A model generated the notes under the pieces. That model was not told the DNA's origin and made no database searches. It saw only the letters and a program-made list of their open reading frames with translations. A stretch of DNA of 46,717 nt from a virus. The stretch spans positions 1-46,717 of the IMG/VR virus record IMGVR_UViG_3300012985_000014; one strand, written 5' to 3'. Of the stretch, positions 3,917-36,874 are shown in pieces; the first letter of the stretch is position 1, and every line of letters begins with the position of its first letter. The translations under genes were made by a program, and so were the position numbers.

Positions 3917-6259
3917 ATGGACATGCCCCCTCTCGACCAGCCTCCCGCCGACGACGCCCCGCCCGACGTTGGCGCGCTCACCGTCCAGTTGCAGCCTCCG
4001 CGCGCCGCCCCCGTCGCCGGCAAGCCGTCCGAAGACACCAACATGGTCCCGTCGCTCAACGAGGAGGAGCAGAAGAAGCTCGTCGAGCAAGTGATACGGG
4101 ACTTCGACGCTGACGTCGACAGCCGCGAGCCTCGAATGCGCCGGCTGAAAGAGGCACAGGGCCTCTACGCCTCCGTCATGAAGGCGAAGTCATTCCCCTT
4201 CAAGAACGCCGCCAACGTGAACCTGCCATTGCTTGCGCGCCCGTGGCTCCAGATTCAGGGGCGCCTCTACGACATGGTCTGGCCGGCCGACGGCAAGGTC
4301 TTCTACTCGTCGTTCACGTCCATCAGCGACGCGCCAGTTGCCGCCGCGACGGAGACGTTCGGCAACAGCTACATCCGCCACAAAATGCCCGAGATGTCCC
4401 AGGGCATGGACGACACGCTCCACCAGACGTGCGGCTACGGCTCGGGGTTCCGGAAGACGTACTGGAACAGCTACGAGGGCCGTGTCTGCTCCGACTGGAT
4501 TCCCATCGAGGACTTCGTCGTCGCCCACGGCCAGCGCAGCCAGGACCCGTCGATGCGCGACGTCCCGCGCTACACCCACGTGCAGCGCCCCACCTACTTC
4601 AAGATGGAGGGATACTCCGACAAGGGCATCTACGCCAACTTCGACCTGGTCAAACTGACCGCTCCCGACCAGAAGGCCGACAGCGAGTTCAAGCAGCAGC
4701 TCGCGAAAATCGACGGCCACAGCGCCTCGACGAGCGAAACCACCATCGAGTCGCAAGAGCGGATGGTGCTGGAGCAGTACTTCGAGTGGCGCACGCCCGA
4801 CGCGCCAGACGTACACCCCGCTTTCGACGGCAAGCCCCACGCCGTTGTCGCGACCGTCGATGAGCAGTCGCGCACGCTTCTGCGCCTCATCATCCGCGAG
4901 GAGCCCGACCCCGACGATTTCGCGCGCTTCACGAAGGAACAAGCCGCATTCGACGGGCACATGCAGCAGCTCGAGGCGTTCGTTCGCGAGGCGCAGGCCG
5001 CGCAGACGGTGCAGGACGCTGCCGCCGCTGCTGGCCTGCCGGTAGATCCGAACTTCCAGCCTCCGCAACCTCCTGCGCCGCCGCCCGGCCTGAAGACCGA
5101 CGAATCAGGCATGCCGACGCCGCCCGAGCCTCAGCGCGTGCGGCCTATCAGCCTGTTCACGCACTACCGCGCGTTCCCCTCGGAGGGCTTCTACGGCCTC
5201 GGCCTCTGCGACTTCATGTCGGGGGCGAACAAGGCCGTGAACACGATGCTCAACCAGACCATCGACCGCGGCACGCTCCAAATCAGCATGCCGGGGTTCA
5301 TCTCGGCGCAGCTGAAGGGGCAGCGCGGCGCCATCAACGTCCAGCCGGGCGAGATGATCGAAGTCGACGCGCCCATGGGCTCGCTGAAAGACGGGATGTT
5401 CTTCCCGCAGTTCCCGCCCGCCGACCCGTCGCTGATGCGGACGGTGCAGCTGCTCCTCGAAGAGTCGGACAAGATGGTCGCCAGCTCCGACATGATGAGC
5501 GGGCAGACCTCGGGGGCGAACCGCACCGCGAAGGAAGCGCAAATCCTCAGCGAGCAGATGATGATGCAAATCACCGTCCTTGCGAGGCGCATCAAGGAAG
5601 CCTTCAAGCACGAGCTGGACAAAATCTGGCGGTGCTGGGGCGTGTTCCTTCCCGACGAGGAAGTCGTCGACCTCATCGGCCACGACAACGAGCCGACGCA
5701 GGTTCGCATCGGCCGCGCGATGTTCACGCCGAACGCGCACGTCACGCCCGCCGCCGACCCGCGCACCAAGACGCAGCGCCGCGAGGAGGCGATGCAGGTA
5801 TTCGGGCTCGTGACGAACAACCCGTACCTGATGAACCAGCCGCCGCCAGTGCGCGACGCGCTGATGCGCCAGGTAACCGAGGACGTGCTGCGCGTCCACG
5901 GCGCCGAGAAGCTGGTCAAGCTGCTCCCGCCGCCCGAGCCCGTGCAACCGCCGCCCCCTCCCCCGCCAGCGCCGTACTGGGAGGAAAACGCGAGCTTCGT
6001 CCGTGGCCAGGACCATCCCGTGCACAAGGATGACAACGACCAAGAGCACATTGCCGGGCACATGAGCATCAAGAACGGCCCGGCCGGCGCGGTCATGGAC
6101 AAGGCAGGGAAGGACATGCTCGACCGCCACATCAGGTTCCACGTGGCACAGGACATTGAGAAGACCGGCCAGAAGGTGCAGCAGCTTCATCAGCACTTGA
6201 TGGGCGGGACGGTACAGCCGGCGCCGATGCCTCCGATGATGAACGGAGCGCCGCAGTGA
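3917..6259 (+). CDS. Portal protein
   Basis: This 780-residue protein forms the ring at one capsid vertex through which DNA passes. Characteristic features are the N-terminal helical region, the segment F-P-F-K-N-A-A-N-V-N-L-P-L near residue 95, and the F-Y-G-L-G motif near residue 420. A long helix with R-T-A-K-E-A near 540 fits the stem and crown of large podoviral portals. A proline-rich stretch near 675-690 leads to a His-rich tail (H-I-A-G-H, H-I-R-F-H). Size and position after the terminase support the call. Confidence 0.9.
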   Translation: MDMPPLDQPPADDAPPDVGALTVQLQPPRAAPVAGKPSEDTNMVPSLNEEEQKKLVEQVIRDFDADVDSREPRMRRLKEAQGLYASVMKAKSFPFKNAANVNLPLLARPWLQIQGRLYDMVWPADGKVFYSSFTSISDAPVAAATETFGNSYIRHKMPEMSQGMDDTLHQTCGYGSGFRKTYWNSYEGRVCSDWIPIEDFVVAHGQRSQDPSMRDVPRYTHVQRPTYFKMEGYSDKGIYANFDLVKLTAPDQKADSEFKQQLAKIDGHSASTSETTIESQERMVLEQYFEWRTPDAPDVHPAFDGKPHAVVATVDEQSRTLLRLIIREEPDPDDFARFTKEQAAFDGHMQQLEAFVREAQAAQTVQDAAAAAGLPVDPNFQPPQPPAPPPGLKTDESGMPTPPEPQRVRPISLFTHYRAFPSEGFYGLGLCDFMSGANKAVNTMLNQTIDRGTLQISMPGFISAQLKGQRGAINVQPGEMIEVDAPMGSLKDGMFFPQFPPADPSLMRTVQLLLEESDKMVASSDMMSGQTSGANRTAKEAQILSEQMMMQITVLARRIKEAFKHELDKIWRCWGVFLPDEEVVDLIGHDNEPTQVRIGRAMFTPNAHVTPAADPRTKTQRREEAMQVFGLVTNNPYLMNQPPPVRDALMRQVTEDVLRVHGAEKLVKLLPPPEPVQPPPPPPPAPYWEENASFVRGQDHPVHKDDNDQEHIAGHMSIKNGPAGAVMDKAGKDMLDRHIRFHVAQDIEKTGQKVQQLHQHLMGGTVQPAPMPPMMNGAPQ

Positions 6260-6441
6260 CCGACGTCGAATACACGTTGTCGCGCGAACGAGAAGAAGAG
6301 GTGGCGTCGCGGATGCCGTCCGGATGTGAGCACGACCTAACGCAGGTGGACACGCACCCATCGATGGGGCGCGCGTTGCAATGTCGGCTTTGTAAGTGCT
6401 GGCAGTGGGAATTTCCTCTCTACCGAGGAGCGCCGCAGTGA
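6256..6441 (+). CDS. Small putative zinc protein
   Basis: The 61-residue product starts with GTG at 6256, overlapping the portal stop. It has C-x-H near residue 24 and C-x2-C near residue 43 before a W-Q-W-E-F strand. This C..H...CxxC plan resembles the insertion in the GroES-like protein two genes downstream (C-x5-H-x16-C-x2-C). Function unknown. Confidence 0.65.
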   Translation: MTDVEYTLSREREEEVASRMPSGCEHDLTQVDTHPSMGRALQCRLCKCWQWEFPLYRGAPQ

Positions 6442-6734
6442 CCCGCCCCCGCTGGCTGTCCCTCGACGGCAAGGCCATGGCCGAAATTCGCGAGTTGCCC
6501 GCGATCCAGATGCTCACCGAGTGGCTGGAGTGGGAACGCGCGGCCGCGCTGGAACTCGTCCACGAAGCGACCGTCATGAAGGAAGACCCAGCCCTACGGT
6601 CGGGAACCGTCATCGCCATCGACCACATCTTGAAGTCGTTGCACACGCCGCTGGCGATTGCCGACTTGCCCGAAGAAAAGTTCAAAGACCCGGCCCGTAG
6701 GCCATCGCGAAAGGACGAAGATGCTGAAGTTTGA
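6438..6734 (+). CDS. Hypothetical helical protein between portal and co-chaperonin
   Basis: A GTG start at 6438 overlaps the previous stop, and the gene runs 14 bases into the next one. The 98 residues are mainly two amphipathic helices (around residues 20-50 and 55-70) with a charged tail. There is no recognisable domain. Position suggests a head-assembly role, by inference only. Confidence 0.6.
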   Translation: MTRPRWLSLDGKAMAEIRELPAIQMLTEWLEWERAAALELVHEATVMKEDPALRSGTVIAIDHILKSLHTPLAIADLPEEKFKDPARRPSRKDEDAEV

Positions 6735-7275
6735 CGAGTTGCCGTCGGTCCCGCTCAACGACCGAATCATGGTCCGGCAGGACGAGCCGCCCGAGGAGTC
6801 AGTGGGCGGGATTCTCATCCCGCAGGCGGCGCAGATTCAGGCGCGGACAGGCACCATCCTGTCGGCGGGCCTGCGCGCGATGGACATTATGTTCGACAAC
6901 GGCGAGCAAATCGGCGACCGCATCGAGTTCGGCCAGTTCGCGGGCGTCTGGGAGGAGTGGGACCACATCGTAAAGGCGGGCAAGAAGATGTGCCCCGACG
7001 GCGTGGATCACGCGTGGGCGCGGCGCCCTGCTCCCGGCTACCGCTCCGAGGCGTACGAGTGCGACGCGTGCGGCGCCATCCGTCACCGCGAGCCGATTCT
7101 CATCATGAACGTCGGCGACATCCTGACGAACATCACCAAGGCCGAGCGCATCCGCAGCGGAGAACTGACGCTGAAGCGCTACGAGAACCCGACCGTGCAC
7201 AAGTACGAGCGCGCCAACGCCGCTCCCATCGACACGACCGCCAACCCCACCAACGGAGTGACCTATGCTGCTTGA
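6721..7275 (+). CDS. GroES-like co-chaperonin with zinc-site insertion
   Basis: The 184-residue product starts L-K-F-D-E-L-P-S-V-P-L-N-D-R-I. It carries the GroES mobile-loop signature S-V-G-G-I-L-I-P at about residues 27-34, then G-T-I-L-S-A-G, G-D-R-I-E-F-G and a closing strand I-L-I-M-N-V-G-D-I-L (126-135). This is the order of GroES strands. Between the last two lies an insertion of about 40 residues with C91, H97, C114 and C117, a likely zinc ribbon. The tail after 140 is also extra. Phage co-chaperonins such as T4 gp31 help the host GroEL fold capsid protein, and the gene sits between portal and capsid genes. Start chosen at ATG 6721 for the GroES alignment. Confidence 0.8.
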   Translation: MLKFDELPSVPLNDRIMVRQDEPPEESVGGILIPQAAQIQARTGTILSAGLRAMDIMFDNGEQIGDRIEFGQFAGVWEEWDHIVKAGKKMCPDGVDHAWARRPAPGYRSEAYECDACGAIRHREPILIMNVGDILTNITKAERIRSGELTLKRYENPTVHKYERANAAPIDTTANPTNGVTYAA

Positions 7276-8191
7276 AGGACAGACCGACGACACCAGCGAC
7301 GCGGAAGACCTTGCGGCGCTGAGAGGCGCGGCAGATGGCGCCCCGGCCGCCGACAAGGAGCCGGACGGCCCCGCTGTACCGCCCGCGCCCGAACCGGGTA
7401 AGTCCGTGTCCGTCGAGGCACCGAAGTCGCGCCGCCAGCGCGCCGAGGAGGAGCGCAAGGCAGAGTTGACGCGGATGTCCGAGACCATCAAGGAACTGCG
7501 CGAGCGGGACTCTGCGCGTGATCGCCAGCTTGGCGAGCTGACCGGCCACCTGTCGGCGCTCGCCCAGCAGCGCGCGGCCGCGCCCCCGGTACAGGCATAC
7601 CAGCCGCCCCCGCCGCAGATTCCTGATCCGCGCGACCTTCGCCGGCAGGCGCTCAAGGCGCTGGACGCCAGAGACATGGACCAGTATCACGAGTTGCTCG
7701 AGCAGGCGAACACCGCCGCGACGATGCGCGCCATCGCGCCTGCGCTACAGCGCGTGGCCCAGCAGCCGCAAGCCCCCGTCCAGCAGCAGGTGCCCGCCGA
7801 GTTAATGGCGTACTTCGCGGCCTACCCGGACGTGGCGACGCACCCGTCTCGAGACAAGCTGCTGATGGCCAAGAACGCCGAGCTGGAGGCGCTCGGGTAC
7901 CCGGAAGGCCCGGGGCGCGTGAAGGCCGTGTTCGACCATGTCCAGGCGACCGTGAAGGCCGGCAAGGGCGCGCAGCGACAGGCCCCTGGGTTCGATCCGA
8001 GCAGCGCCGCCGCGCTATCGGGCACGCCCACCGCCCGCCCGGCTGGGGGCAGCAGCGGCCCCGGCAAGGGCGAGCCGCGCGTCGAGCTGAACGCCGAGGA
8101 GCGCCGCATGTGGAAGGCGGCGGGATTCACCGACGAGACGGAGCTGGCGCGGTACGTCGCGCAGTCGAATCCGGGTCGCGTTCTCCGCTGA
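7265..8191 (+). CDS. Scaffold-like head assembly protein
   Basis: This 308-residue acidic protein is rich in Ala, Gln, Pro and Glu. A coiled coil spans about residues 57-105 (R-Q-R-A-E-E-E-R... to L-A-Q-Q-R) and a helical region about 115-165. The C-terminal helix E-L-N-A-E-E-R-R-M-W-K-A-A-G-F-T is typical of podoviral scaffold proteins. It lies just upstream of the head genes and overlaps the co-chaperonin by 11 bases. No protease motif is seen. The call rests on composition and position. Confidence 0.65.
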   Translation: MLLEGQTDDTSDAEDLAALRGAADGAPAADKEPDGPAVPPAPEPGKSVSVEAPKSRRQRAEEERKAELTRMSETIKELRERDSARDRQLGELTGHLSALAQQRAAAPPVQAYQPPPPQIPDPRDLRRQALKALDARDMDQYHELLEQANTAATMRAIAPALQRVAQQPQAPVQQQVPAELMAYFAAYPDVATHPSRDKLLMAKNAELEALGYPEGPGRVKAVFDHVQATVKAGKGAQRQAPGFDPSSAAALSGTPTARPAGGSSGPGKGEPRVELNAEERRMWKAAGFTDETELARYVAQSNPGRVLR

Positions 8192-8194
8192 GTA

Positions 8195-8228
8195 TTGACA
8201 TTCCAGAATTCGTCAGGTCTACTTGACG
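8195..8228 (+). promoter_or_regulatory. Sigma70-type promoter before the capsid genes
   Basis: TTGACA at 8195-8200 is a perfect -35 box, and TCTACT at 8218-8223 lies 17 bases later as a 4/6 -10 box. The -10 region is part of GGTCTACTTGACG (8216-8228), also found at 138-150 and 492-504. This 120-base gap is one of the few in the structural module, so extra transcription of capsid genes is plausible. A CTGACC/GGTCAG hairpin at 8290-8307 lies just before the next start. Confidence 0.5.
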
Positions 8229-8311
8229 ATGTAGTTAGGGCGTAATTCCTCGGGGCAGTCGACCGAGTGAGCCTGGCACCGATTCCGCGCTGACCAACCC
8301 GGGTCAGAGGC

Positions 8312-8836
8312 GTGAAACAGGGTCAAGGGTCACTCATGCACGTTCCGAGTCGCAACGACGCCCCTGCCGGTCTGGACCTTCACGCGCAGTCTCGAGCGCA
8401 TGAACTTTCGGGCAAAGACCCGAACTTTCATTACGAGTACAAGTCGCTTGATCCGAAGCATCCGCAGTACTTCGGGAACTACCTGAAGCAACGCGAGATC
8501 GGAAATCAAGTCGCCAAGTACGTGTTCGTCGATCCGTGGGAAGTGGTCCACCAGGGCGAAGTCGAGCAGGGCCGCAAGCGCGCGGATGACACCAAGGGCG
8601 TGGACACGAAGGTGACCCACGGCTCGATGGTGCTCATGCGTACGCCCAAGGCGAACGCCGAAAAGGTGCACCTGATGAATGACCGCATGGTCAACATCCA
8701 GAGCGCCGCGCTGCACTCGAACGAGCGGAATCAGATCGAACAGACCCGCTTCGGGGCGCAGGTATTCAGCGGCGACGTCACCAGCGGCGCTCATGCCGCT
8801 CCGGTCGTTTCCGCCAATTTGACCGGAGGCAAGTAA
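8312..8836 (+). CDS. Head-region structural protein
   Basis: The protein has up to 174 residues from GTG 8312, preceded by AGAGG. ATG at 8336 is the alternative start and gives 166. It is polar and mixed alpha/beta with few hydrophobic runs and no cysteines, and contains H-Y-E-Y-K-S-L-D-P and V-D-P-W-E-V-V. Its place between scaffold and capsid genes, behind its own promoter, suggests a minor head or decoration component. Family not recognised. Confidence 0.65.
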   Translation: MKQGQGSLMHVPSRNDAPAGLDLHAQSRAHELSGKDPNFHYEYKSLDPKHPQYFGNYLKQREIGNQVAKYVFVDPWEVVHQGEVEQGRKRADDTKGVDTKVTHGSMVLMRTPKANAEKVHLMNDRMVNIQSAALHSNERNQIEQTRFGAQVFSGDVTSGAHAAPVVSANLTGGK

Positions 8837-8839
8837 GTC

Positions 8840-9442
8840 ATGGCGAACTCAGCTCTTCCCGGGTTTCGCCCCGTCTACGTGAAGGGTGGCGGCACCGTCA
8901 CCTACCGTCGCGGGCGAGTCCTCACCAACAACACCACCGCAATCTTTCAGTACGACGCCGTCGTGCGGGCCGCTGGCGGCGACTACACGGTTGCCTCCGT
9001 CACCACCACGGCGACTCAGGGCAGCTCGGGCGGCGTGGTCTACACCGACGCGGCGGGCACGCGGCGCGAGGCGAAGTACCTCCCGGCCGCCACGCTCTAC
9101 ACGTCGTCTGGCAACGCGCCCGACAACGCGAGCTACGTCTACCTGGTCGACAACCTGGTCAACACGGTGTTCACGGCTTCGATTGCCGGCGCAGCCGTCA
9201 CGCTGACCGACGAAAACCTGAACCTGGCGATGGTGCTGGGCGCCGGGTCGACGACCACGGGTCTGTCGGGACACACGCTGACCCGCACGGGCATCGCGGT
9301 CACCGCGACCATCCCGTGGCGCTTCGAGGGTCTCGTCATCGGGTCTCCGATCAATGACGTCGACCTCATCAACACCGCAGCGTTCGTTACCGCCAACTGC
9401 ACCTTCGACGAGCCGGCCCTGTCGGCCAGCTTGGGAGTGTAA
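8840..9442 (+). CDS. Probable head decoration protein
   Basis: This 200-residue beta-rich protein has many Thr, Ser, Gly and Val residues, alternating hydrophobic strands and almost no charge. This is typical of virion surface proteins. It lies two bases before the capsid gene and has the Shine-Dalgarno GGAGG about 11 bases before ATG 8840. Capsid-stabilising proteins are usually encoded here. The assignment is positional. Confidence 0.6.
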   Translation: MANSALPGFRPVYVKGGGTVTYRRGRVLTNNTTAIFQYDAVVRAAGGDYTVASVTTTATQGSSGGVVYTDAAGTRREAKYLPAATLYTSSGNAPDNASYVYLVDNLVNTVFTASIAGAAVTLTDENLNLAMVLGAGSTTTGLSGHTLTRTGIAVTATIPWRFEGLVIGSPINDVDLINTAAFVTANCTFDEPALSASLGV

Positions 9443-9444
9443 CC

Positions 9445-10341
9445 ATGTCAGTACTCAACATTGCCCAGTGGTACGCCGCTATCGAGCCCGTCGAGCGCAA
9501 GTGGTTCAACTCCGCGATGGCCAAGATCGTCGAGCAGTTCTCCCAGATTGCGGAGGTCGACTCCATCGACGTTCCGATCCGGGAGTTCAGCGAATGGGGC
9601 GGTCCTCAGCAGCTCGAGCTGAAGCCGGAAAACCAGGCGATGAACGTGCGAACGGTGATGCTCGGCACGCCGAAGCGCGTCCAGGTGGCGACCTTCGCGG
9701 GCGCCATCGAAATCAGCCGCGAGGCGGTCACCGACGTCAAGATCTCGCAGCTGAAGACGCCGGCTCAGGCGCTCGGCCGCGCGGCCAAGAAGACGCCGGA
9801 GTACCTGTTCGCGCAGTTCATGGACCGGTCTCACAACAGCGCGTACCCGGTCACCGCCGACAACATCAACCTGTGCTCGGCGAGCCACGTGACCCCGTAC
9901 GGCACCACGTACGCGAACACGCTGGCGACCCCCGCCGCGCTGTCGGAGACCTCGCTGGAGGACATCCGCACCGCGCTGCGCACGACCATCGGGCCGGACG
10001 GCATGCTGGCGCCGGTCACCCCGAAGGCGCTCATCGTTCCGTCGGCTCTGGATGTCCTGTCCGAGAAGCTGACCAAGAGCGAGAAGACACTGGGCAGCGC
10101 GAACAACGACCCGAGCGTTATCCAGGGGATGAAGCGGATCGTGTTCGACTACCTGACGAACACCACGCGCTTCTACGTCCAGACCGATGCCGACAACGGC
10201 TTCTACTGGAACTGGCGCGAGAAGCCGACCTTCGAGCGCGACAACGTCTCGCTGACGATGCAGGCGATCTTCATCTGCTTCTTCCGCGCGATGTGGGGCG
10301 CCGAGAACGCCCGTTGCGTCTACGCATCCGACGCCACCTAA
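9445..10341 (+). CDS. Major capsid protein
   Basis: The 298-residue product has the organisation of HK97-fold head proteins. There is a helical start (A-Q-W-Y-A-A-I-E-P-V-E) and an E-loop-like stretch with R-T-V-M-L-G-T-P. The segment I-E-I-S-R-E-A-V-T-D near residue 90 is followed by a long helix and the A-domain-like stretch P-K-A-L-I-V-P-S-A-L. A closing strand is Q-A-I-F-I-C-F-F-R-A. Mu gpT-type and similar capsid proteins share the S-R-E segment followed by a helix. Position after scaffold and decoration genes agrees. No cleavage site is evident, fitting a separate scaffold. Confidence 0.8.
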   Translation: MSVLNIAQWYAAIEPVERKWFNSAMAKIVEQFSQIAEVDSIDVPIREFSEWGGPQQLELKPENQAMNVRTVMLGTPKRVQVATFAGAIEISREAVTDVKISQLKTPAQALGRAAKKTPEYLFAQFMDRSHNSAYPVTADNINLCSASHVTPYGTTYANTLATPAALSETSLEDIRTALRTTIGPDGMLAPVTPKALIVPSALDVLSEKLTKSEKTLGSANNDPSVIQGMKRIVFDYLTNTTRFYVQTDADNGFYWNWREKPTFERDNVSLTMQAIFICFFRAMWGAENARCVYASDAT

Positions 10342-11346: not shown

Positions 11347-11613
11347 ATGGGGACCAGGCCGACGGAGTTCGTCAATGGCGAAGTCCTCACGGCCTGCTCC
11401 ATCTGCGGGCGACGCCGTCTCTTCCCGTCACAGGTGGTCCTTTCCCCGGACCGCCTGTGGCGGTGTACCGAGTGCAACGAGCTGACGGCCTACGAATACA
11501 ACCAGCAGATTGCGGCTGCACGCCAGCGGCGGCCCGAGCCTGATACCGGCATCGGCATTGGCTCGCAGTTCGACCCTAGCTTTCCCACTGACTCAGACAT
11601 GGGGTTCCCGTGA
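11347..11613 (+). CDS. Small zinc-ribbon protein
   Basis: The 88-residue product has C-S-I-C near residue 17 and C-T-E-C near residue 40. These form a CxxC...CxxC zinc ribbon spaced by about 20 residues, followed by a polar tail rich in Pro, Asp and Gly. It begins three bases after the beta-helix gene. Such ribbons bind nucleic acid or stabilise structural complexes, and which applies here cannot be told. Confidence 0.65.
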   Translation: MGTRPTEFVNGEVLTACSICGRRRLFPSQVVLSPDRLWRCTECNELTAYEYNQQIAAARQRRPEPDTGIGIGSQFDPSFPTDSDMGFP

Positions 11614-36122: not shown

Positions 36123-36874
36123 CGGGCTGCCCCCGCGAGAGGGACGTGACGCCATCGCTTGCCGGAAGCCGCATAGCTGACCGCGCGGTCGGAGACGCCG
36201 AACCGGGCGGCCAGTGAACGGAAGGTCTCCGTCTGCGCGAGCGACCGAATCTCGCGCACGTCGGCCTCGGTCAGCTTGGCCGTCGCGATGCCCTCGCCGC
36301 GCGCCTGCCGTCCGCGCTCCTGCTTGTCGGCGTTGTTGTCGGCGATCGAACCAGGGATCAGGTGCAGGCCGTTTACACACGCCCGGTTGTCGCAGGTGTG
36401 ACGCGAGACTTCGTCCGAGGTCAGCGCGCGGCCGAGTCGCAGTTCCAGCGAGAACCGAATCGCCTGGACGTTTTTCCCGTCGACAAACAGCAGCCCATAG
36501 CCGTCGCGGTCCATGGCGCCCGTCCACGGCCAACACTCGTCAGGACCGCCCTTGGCGACCTGTTCCCAGAAGCGATCGGCGGCCGGGACGAGACGACTGC
36601 GATTGACCCGGCTCAGCGGCCCCGGCGCGTCGGCCCACAGTAGGCCGGTGCAGATCTGCGAGATCAGGGACGTCGATACGACGAACTCGGCGGCCAGATC
36701 GCTGGCCCTTTCATTGGCGGCGCGCCGGGTCCTGATTTCGGCGACGCTCGCGACGTCGAGCTTTGAACGGTGACGCTCTGCCTGACCCGGTAACCCCGCC
36801 GTTGGCAATGGATTTTCAGTCCATTGCTCTACCGACTGAGCTACCTGGGCCTTTGTGGGCGCAGGCTTTAACAT
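36119..36874 (-). CDS. HTH-HNH-HTH homing-type endonuclease
   Basis: ATG 36874 gives 251 residues. Residues about 37-80 are a helix-turn-helix (A-S-V-A-E-I-R-T-R-R...L-A-A-E-F-V-V-S). An HNH core follows with C-W-P-W-T-G, H-T-C-D-N-R-A-C-V-N, L-H-L-I-P-G and D-N-N-A-D (about 110-185), then a second helix-turn-helix (A-D-V-R-E-I-R-S...L-A-A-R-F-G-V-S) at the end. Residues about 9-24 are encoded by the tRNA-Phe fragment. Start is uncertain because of this. TTG at about 36808 is an alternative. Confidence 0.75.
   Translation of the reverse strand: MLKPAPTKAQVAQSVEQWTENPLPTAGLPGQAERHRSKLDVASVAEIRTRRAANERASDLAAEFVVSTSLISQICTGLLWADAPGPLSRVNRSRLVPAADRFWEQVAKGGPDECWPWTGAMDRDGYGLLFVDGKNVQAIRFSLELRLGRALTSDEVSRHTCDNRACVNGLHLIPGSIADNNADKQERGRQARGEGIATAKLTEADVREIRSLAQTETFRSLAARFGVSDRAVSYAASGKRWRHVPLAGAAR
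36805..36850 (-). tRNA. 5' part of tRNA-Phe (GAA), candidate attP core
   Basis: Read on the minus strand, the acceptor 5' strand GCCCAGG, TA, a D-arm (GCTC...GAGC) and a full anticodon arm with loop CTGAAAA are all present. The anticodon is GAA at 36815-36817. After the anticodon stem the match stops: no T-arm and no CCTGGGC 3' acceptor strand can be found. It is therefore a fragment, not a working tRNA. It lies 273 bases from the integrase gene, so the likely meaning is an attP core shared with a host tRNA-Phe gene. Confidence 0.75.

Follow-up and report, generated by a model that had tools for sequence, protein, structure and literature searches.

The window, a record of 46,717 bases from an uncultured phage, with 66% G+C, encodes a GroES-type phage co-chaperonin of 184 aa plus stop codon (6721..7275, + strand), in which about 40 extra residues with a candidate zinc-ribbon pattern are placed at the tight turn that leads into the final strand of the barrel. 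With a probability of roughly 0.7, we consider this protein to be a lid for the host GroEL that helps to fold a phage head protein and in which a clade-specific structural zinc ribbon replaces the last-strand turn. Co-chaperonin genes as such are common and unremarkable in this head module. What is new is the insertion, which, among the viral lids examined, is confined to a small set of related phages.

Identity as a co-chaperonin is strongly supported. The ORF begins with ATG and is preceded, at a suitable distance, by an AGGA ribosome-binding-like sequence. Residues 10-76 match the Cpn10/GroES domain (Pfam PF00166, 38.3 bits, E 1.4e-9), above the Pfam cut-off of 21.1 bits, and the protein also matches PHROG 3188 (co-chaperonin GroES, E 1.5e-6). 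Both profile matches end where the insertion starts; the closing barrel strand and the end of the GroES core (residues 124-139, 7090..7137, + strand) were located by alignment, by the structural model and by VIA-align. The mobile loop region (residues 20-35, 6778..6825, + strand) contains SVGGILIP at residues 27-34. In an alignment with 44 other viral GroES sequences it retains the GG-hydrophobic tripeptide for GroEL (GG-ILI) and has the same length as in ordinary viral GroES. An earlier note, made from the sequence alone, had named this loop, the closing strand LIMNVGDIL and the residues C91, H97, C114 and C117; all of them are found as described. Its assignment to the GroES-type phage co-chaperonins is borne out by the sequence and the predicted fold, as is, by the alignment and the conserved residue pattern, its zinc-ribbon-like insertion of approximately 40 residues just before the last strand.

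Whether a GroES-like barrel is present, the question on which the earlier note had staked its reading, was addressed with an AlphaFold2 model built on an alignment of 45 viral sequences (mean pLDDT 87.7, pTM 0.80). A preceding model, based on seven close sequences, had been poor, with a pLDDT of 62, and the improvement to 87.7 came with the addition of other viral GroES sequences. The predicted model contains the barrel including the closing strand. In VIA-align comparisons, residues 4-142 align with 86-91 positions in GroES/Cpn10 chains that are 94-100 residues long, at an rmsd of 1.9-2.4 and a Z of approximately 8, which is modest in general, but these targets comprise only about 95 residues and are nearly fully covered. 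In detail, 91 of 100 residues are matched in human Cpn10 (Z 8.3, rmsd 2.3), 89 of 96 in Thermus Cpn10 (4v4o_O; Z 8.3, rmsd 1.9), 88 of 97 in E. coli GroES by model residues 6-142 (1aon_O; Z 7.9, rmsd 2.3), and 100 of 107 in T4 gp31 (1g31; Z 6.8, rmsd 4.2, 7% identity). Outside the co-chaperonins, the best-scoring rows are GroES-like domains from dehydrogenases and reductases, with a Z of at most 4.3. Due to the presence of other viral GroES sequences in the model's alignment, the fold result depends in part on the sequence result.

The insertion comprises residues 83-123 (6967..7089, + strand) with C91, H97, C114 and C117 as candidate ligands, and all three cysteines of the protein lie within it. 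In the model, strands around the insertion span residues 76-85, 99-102, 110-114 and 120-130, of which 99-102 and 110-114 are short and lie beside the ligands. Residues 91-100 have a mean pLDDT of 77, and the blocks covering residues 101-120 have means of 93-94. Structure searches with the whole model returned no row for the insertion alone and are thus uninformative as to whether its fold is known. The earlier note had further suggested that the insertion might change the roof of the cage or dock to capsid protein; it lies, however, outside the segment that forms the roof in GroES. That segment is short in the window protein and is predicted as a helix in place of the roof hairpin (residues 51-59, 6871..6897, + strand; DSSP on the model). 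Downstream of the core, a C-terminal extension of approximately 45 residues (residues 140-184, 7138..7272, + strand), modelled as a helix and a hairpin, does not figure in the earlier note. Since two more distant relatives, L020 and L022, apparently carry it as well, this extension appears to predate the insertion.

The ligand pattern of the window protein is C-x5-H-x16-C-x2-C-G, and that of the relatives L002/L003, L004, L005, L009/L010 and L015 is C-x-H-x(17-24)-C-x2-C-G, so that the first pair is spaced as C-x5-H in the window and as C-x-H in all of these relatives. Both ligand pairs and the CxxCG knuckle are kept in the window and in all five distinct complete close relatives, which are 48-61% identical to the window protein; the insertion and its C/H...CxxC pattern are therefore more than a chance occurrence. 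Identity between window and relatives is 37-46% in the insertion, compared with 60-67% in the part preceding it, so the ligands are kept within a fast-changing stretch. Conserved ligands in a variable stretch are what a structural zinc site would leave behind, and this conservation supports such a site in the insertion. No named zinc-ribbon profile scored above its cut-off for the window insertion, and the insertion of L002 matched Zn_ribbon_RanBP below the cut-off (E 0.021). A literature search joining GroES with zinc ribbons, with subscription journals mostly outside its reach, found no report of the combination.

A small frame between the portal gene and the co-chaperonin gene (6256-6441, + strand, 61 aa) contains a free-standing C-x-H-x16-C-x2-C with a spacing that resembles the insertion. 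Derivation of the ribbon from this gene was considered but not adopted; beyond the ligands no likeness was apparent by eye, and the gene was not found in the relatives.

IMG/VR was scanned with GroES peptide patterns, a FAGxxEEWDH pattern and a CxxCG...EP pattern, all of which gave a nearly identical small set of contigs. More distant relatives were reached by means of the portal protein, from which a tree was made. The window, all contigs with complete ligands and two partial contigs form one group with 96/100 support. The next branch outward is L020, in which the insertion is present with its length kept and only one of the four ligands remains (YKCDKTGAIR). L022, with a GroES lacking the insertion, branches before L020; the branches of both are long and their placement is therefore less sure. 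In several phages with 25% identical portals the Cpn10 matches span the whole profile and leave no room for an insertion. The simplest reading is a single gain of the insertion, with the ligands either lost in L020 or gained after L020 had split off; loss is favoured, because C-D-x-x-G-A-x-R remains in L020. One further portal relative (L036, portal at 5561-7270) shows no Cpn10 match in its 16.6-kb record, unlike its tree neighbour L033.

Outside this group, no CxxC insertion before the last strand was observed among the matches listed for approximately 119 other viral frames, which were picked by a GDxV..GK..G pattern and are nearly all GroES. The phage collection yielded no DNA match and no place sharing the insertion; its best matches to the insertion have E values of 1-9 and fall, where annotated, on unrelated genes. 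Among 84,980 prokaryote species genomes, two pattern scans for prophage or cellular copies retrieved no relative (90 stretches matched by the first pattern, none of them encoding one, and none matched by the second), with the limit that such scans rely on short exact peptide patterns and could miss diverged copies.

The genes in the window are ordered as terminase, portal (3917..6259, + strand; PHROG 1216, E 6e-15), two small frames, co-chaperonin, three genes, and a Mu gpT-like major capsid gene (9445..10341, + strand; Phage_capsid_4 44.1 bits, Mu-like_gpT 29.5 bits). Hence the co-chaperonin gene does lie between portal and capsid genes, as had been claimed, but three genes (7265-9442) intervene before the capsid gene. 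The capsid protein of 298 aa (approximately 33 kDa) has relatives at 23-31% identity in the Pelagibacter phages HTVC027P and HTVC023P, Roseobacter phage CRP-901, Alcaligenes phage QDWS535, Caulobacter phage GB2A and a Manatee Spring phage. In all five regions examined (HTVC027P, CRP-901, QDWS535, GB2A and the Manatee Spring phage), the capsid gene is preceded by three genes and, ahead of these, by a Cpn10-family gene, as in the window. The more distant phages with an insertion-free GroES at this position include cultured ones. In case of GB2A (L168, 4077-4508, gp089c), the gene that occupies the GroES position ahead of the capsid gene is annotated as hypothetical and matches Cpn10 with an E value of 3.5e-9. 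GroES is also among the 13 core genes of HTVC023P-type pelagiphages (PMC9599517). Downstream of the capsid gene, an 88-aa protein (11347-11613, + strand) with two CxxC pairs is zinc-ribbon-like, with weak Pfam matches below the cut-off, and is 64-80% identical in those related contigs that reach that far. Elsewhere in the window, a tRNA-like match (36783-36850, - strand; Rfam 35.6 bits), whose anticodon-like loop reads GAA and whose T-arm region is shortened, was not called by ARAGORN.

No GroEL gene was found in the window or in six related records, and the lid would therefore act on the GroEL of the host, which it presumably caps as a heptamer; going by established GroES biology, the GG-ILI mobile loop would make the contact. 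Among phage proteins, those of the capsid are classical GroEL clients. Together with the position of the gene, which is no proof of client identity, this makes the gpT-like capsid protein the most likely client. In each subunit a structural zinc ribbon (C-x(1-5)-H, then C-x2-C) would take the place of the tight turn before the last strand and hold an extra beta-hairpin. A heptamer would thereby gain approximately 280 residues on the ring, to which the tail of residues 140-184 would add somewhat more. The ribbon probably forms a rigid platform that makes the lid surface larger and stiffer and either stabilises the ring or contacts the client.

What such a platform is good for may be answered in several ways. 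The protein may be a general-purpose GroES substitute, the insertion a merely stabilising or decorative loop and the ribbon devoid of a client-specific role. This we regard as a serious contender, if somewhat short of an even chance, since relatives in the same gene position manage without any insertion and L020 keeps both the gene and the insertion length with the ligand set gone; as L020 retains the insertion with one of four ligands, metal appears dispensable for whatever the insertion does there. Against a loop of this kind stands the retention of the ligands in five distinct relatives, whose insertions otherwise vary. Conversely, the ribbons may face the cavity or the roof opening and hold the capsid protein or a scaffold. 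The gene adjoins head genes in a position kept across distant phages, and the dome may be open, given that the roof segment is a short helix in the model, but the ligands or the insertion are missing from phages whose capsid proteins are 38-47% identical, and such docking is rather doubtful. Likewise, one might speculate that a ribbon grafted before the last strand would serve as a client-specific contact surface, by which the host chamber is re-aimed at phage head proteins, a proposal that we put forward only tentatively.

Enlargement of the cage in the manner of T4 gp31, to which the earlier note had pointed, is quite improbable. It would agree with the fold match to gp31 and with a model that lacks the roof hairpin; the mobile loop, however, is of ordinary length, and the capsid protein of 298 aa falls well below the 56-kDa gp23, so that an enlarged cage is unneeded. 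On loop length and capsid size this explanation was rejected. Hardly any more credible is a lid that stores metal or senses redox state. The Helicobacter pylori GroES HspA, like the window protein, carries a Cys/His-rich addition (PMC3856676), but as a C-terminal tail, while here a single C/H...CxxC set is situated inside the barrel; because this set is of the ribbon type and lies within the barrel, a structural site fits better than storage. We thus retain the GroEL lid with a structural zinc ribbon as the preferred reading.

How a phage lid redirects the GroEL chamber of its host has been worked out in detail chiefly for T4 gp31, and the clade described here would provide another way of rebuilding a phage lid. 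Its relatives in the same gene position form a series from no insertion through an insertion without ligands to the complete insertion. Such a series allows the function of the added module to be addressed directly, along with the question whether a lid can itself determine the choice of client.

Like GroES/Cpn10 (PF00166), the window protein has the barrel fold, the mobile loop, the GDxV...G motif and the closing LIM..DIL strand. Unlike E. coli GroES with its 97 aa, it comprises 184 aa, with approximately 40 extra residues bearing C/H...CxxC at the last turn, a modelled helix for the roof hairpin and a C-terminal extension of about 45 residues. With T4 gp31 (1g31) it shares the phage origin and the tie to head assembly, and the model predicts, as in gp31, no roof hairpin; since this hairpin is variable and is absent in gp31, it is not required of phage lids. 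To our knowledge, a zinc-ribbon-like insertion is not known from gp31. The two also differ in the mobile loop, which is of ordinary length in the window protein and longer in gp31 (22 residues compared to 16 in GroES), the client of gp31 being the 56-kDa gp23 (PMC6318259). The Cpn10 proteins of HTVC027P, CRP-901, QDWS535 and GB2A, encoded at the same position as in the window, with three genes between them and a gpT-like capsid gene, are 113-155 aa long and have neither the insertion nor a CxxC before the last strand. In medium-chain alcohol dehydrogenases, a GroES-like fold likewise carries an inserted structural zinc lobe, which follows the GDxV strand and precedes the last one. This lobe has four Cys and lies nearer to GDxV, and it belongs to an enzyme rather than a lid; its placement in the fold is similar to that of the window insertion, a likeness of position only. 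Another parallel is HspA of H. pylori, likewise a GroES with an added Cys/His part, which is metal-binding in HspA and a candidate for it in the window protein. In HspA this part is a C-terminal nickel-binding Cys/His-rich tail that is linked to nickel storage and hydrogenase maturation (PMC3856676).
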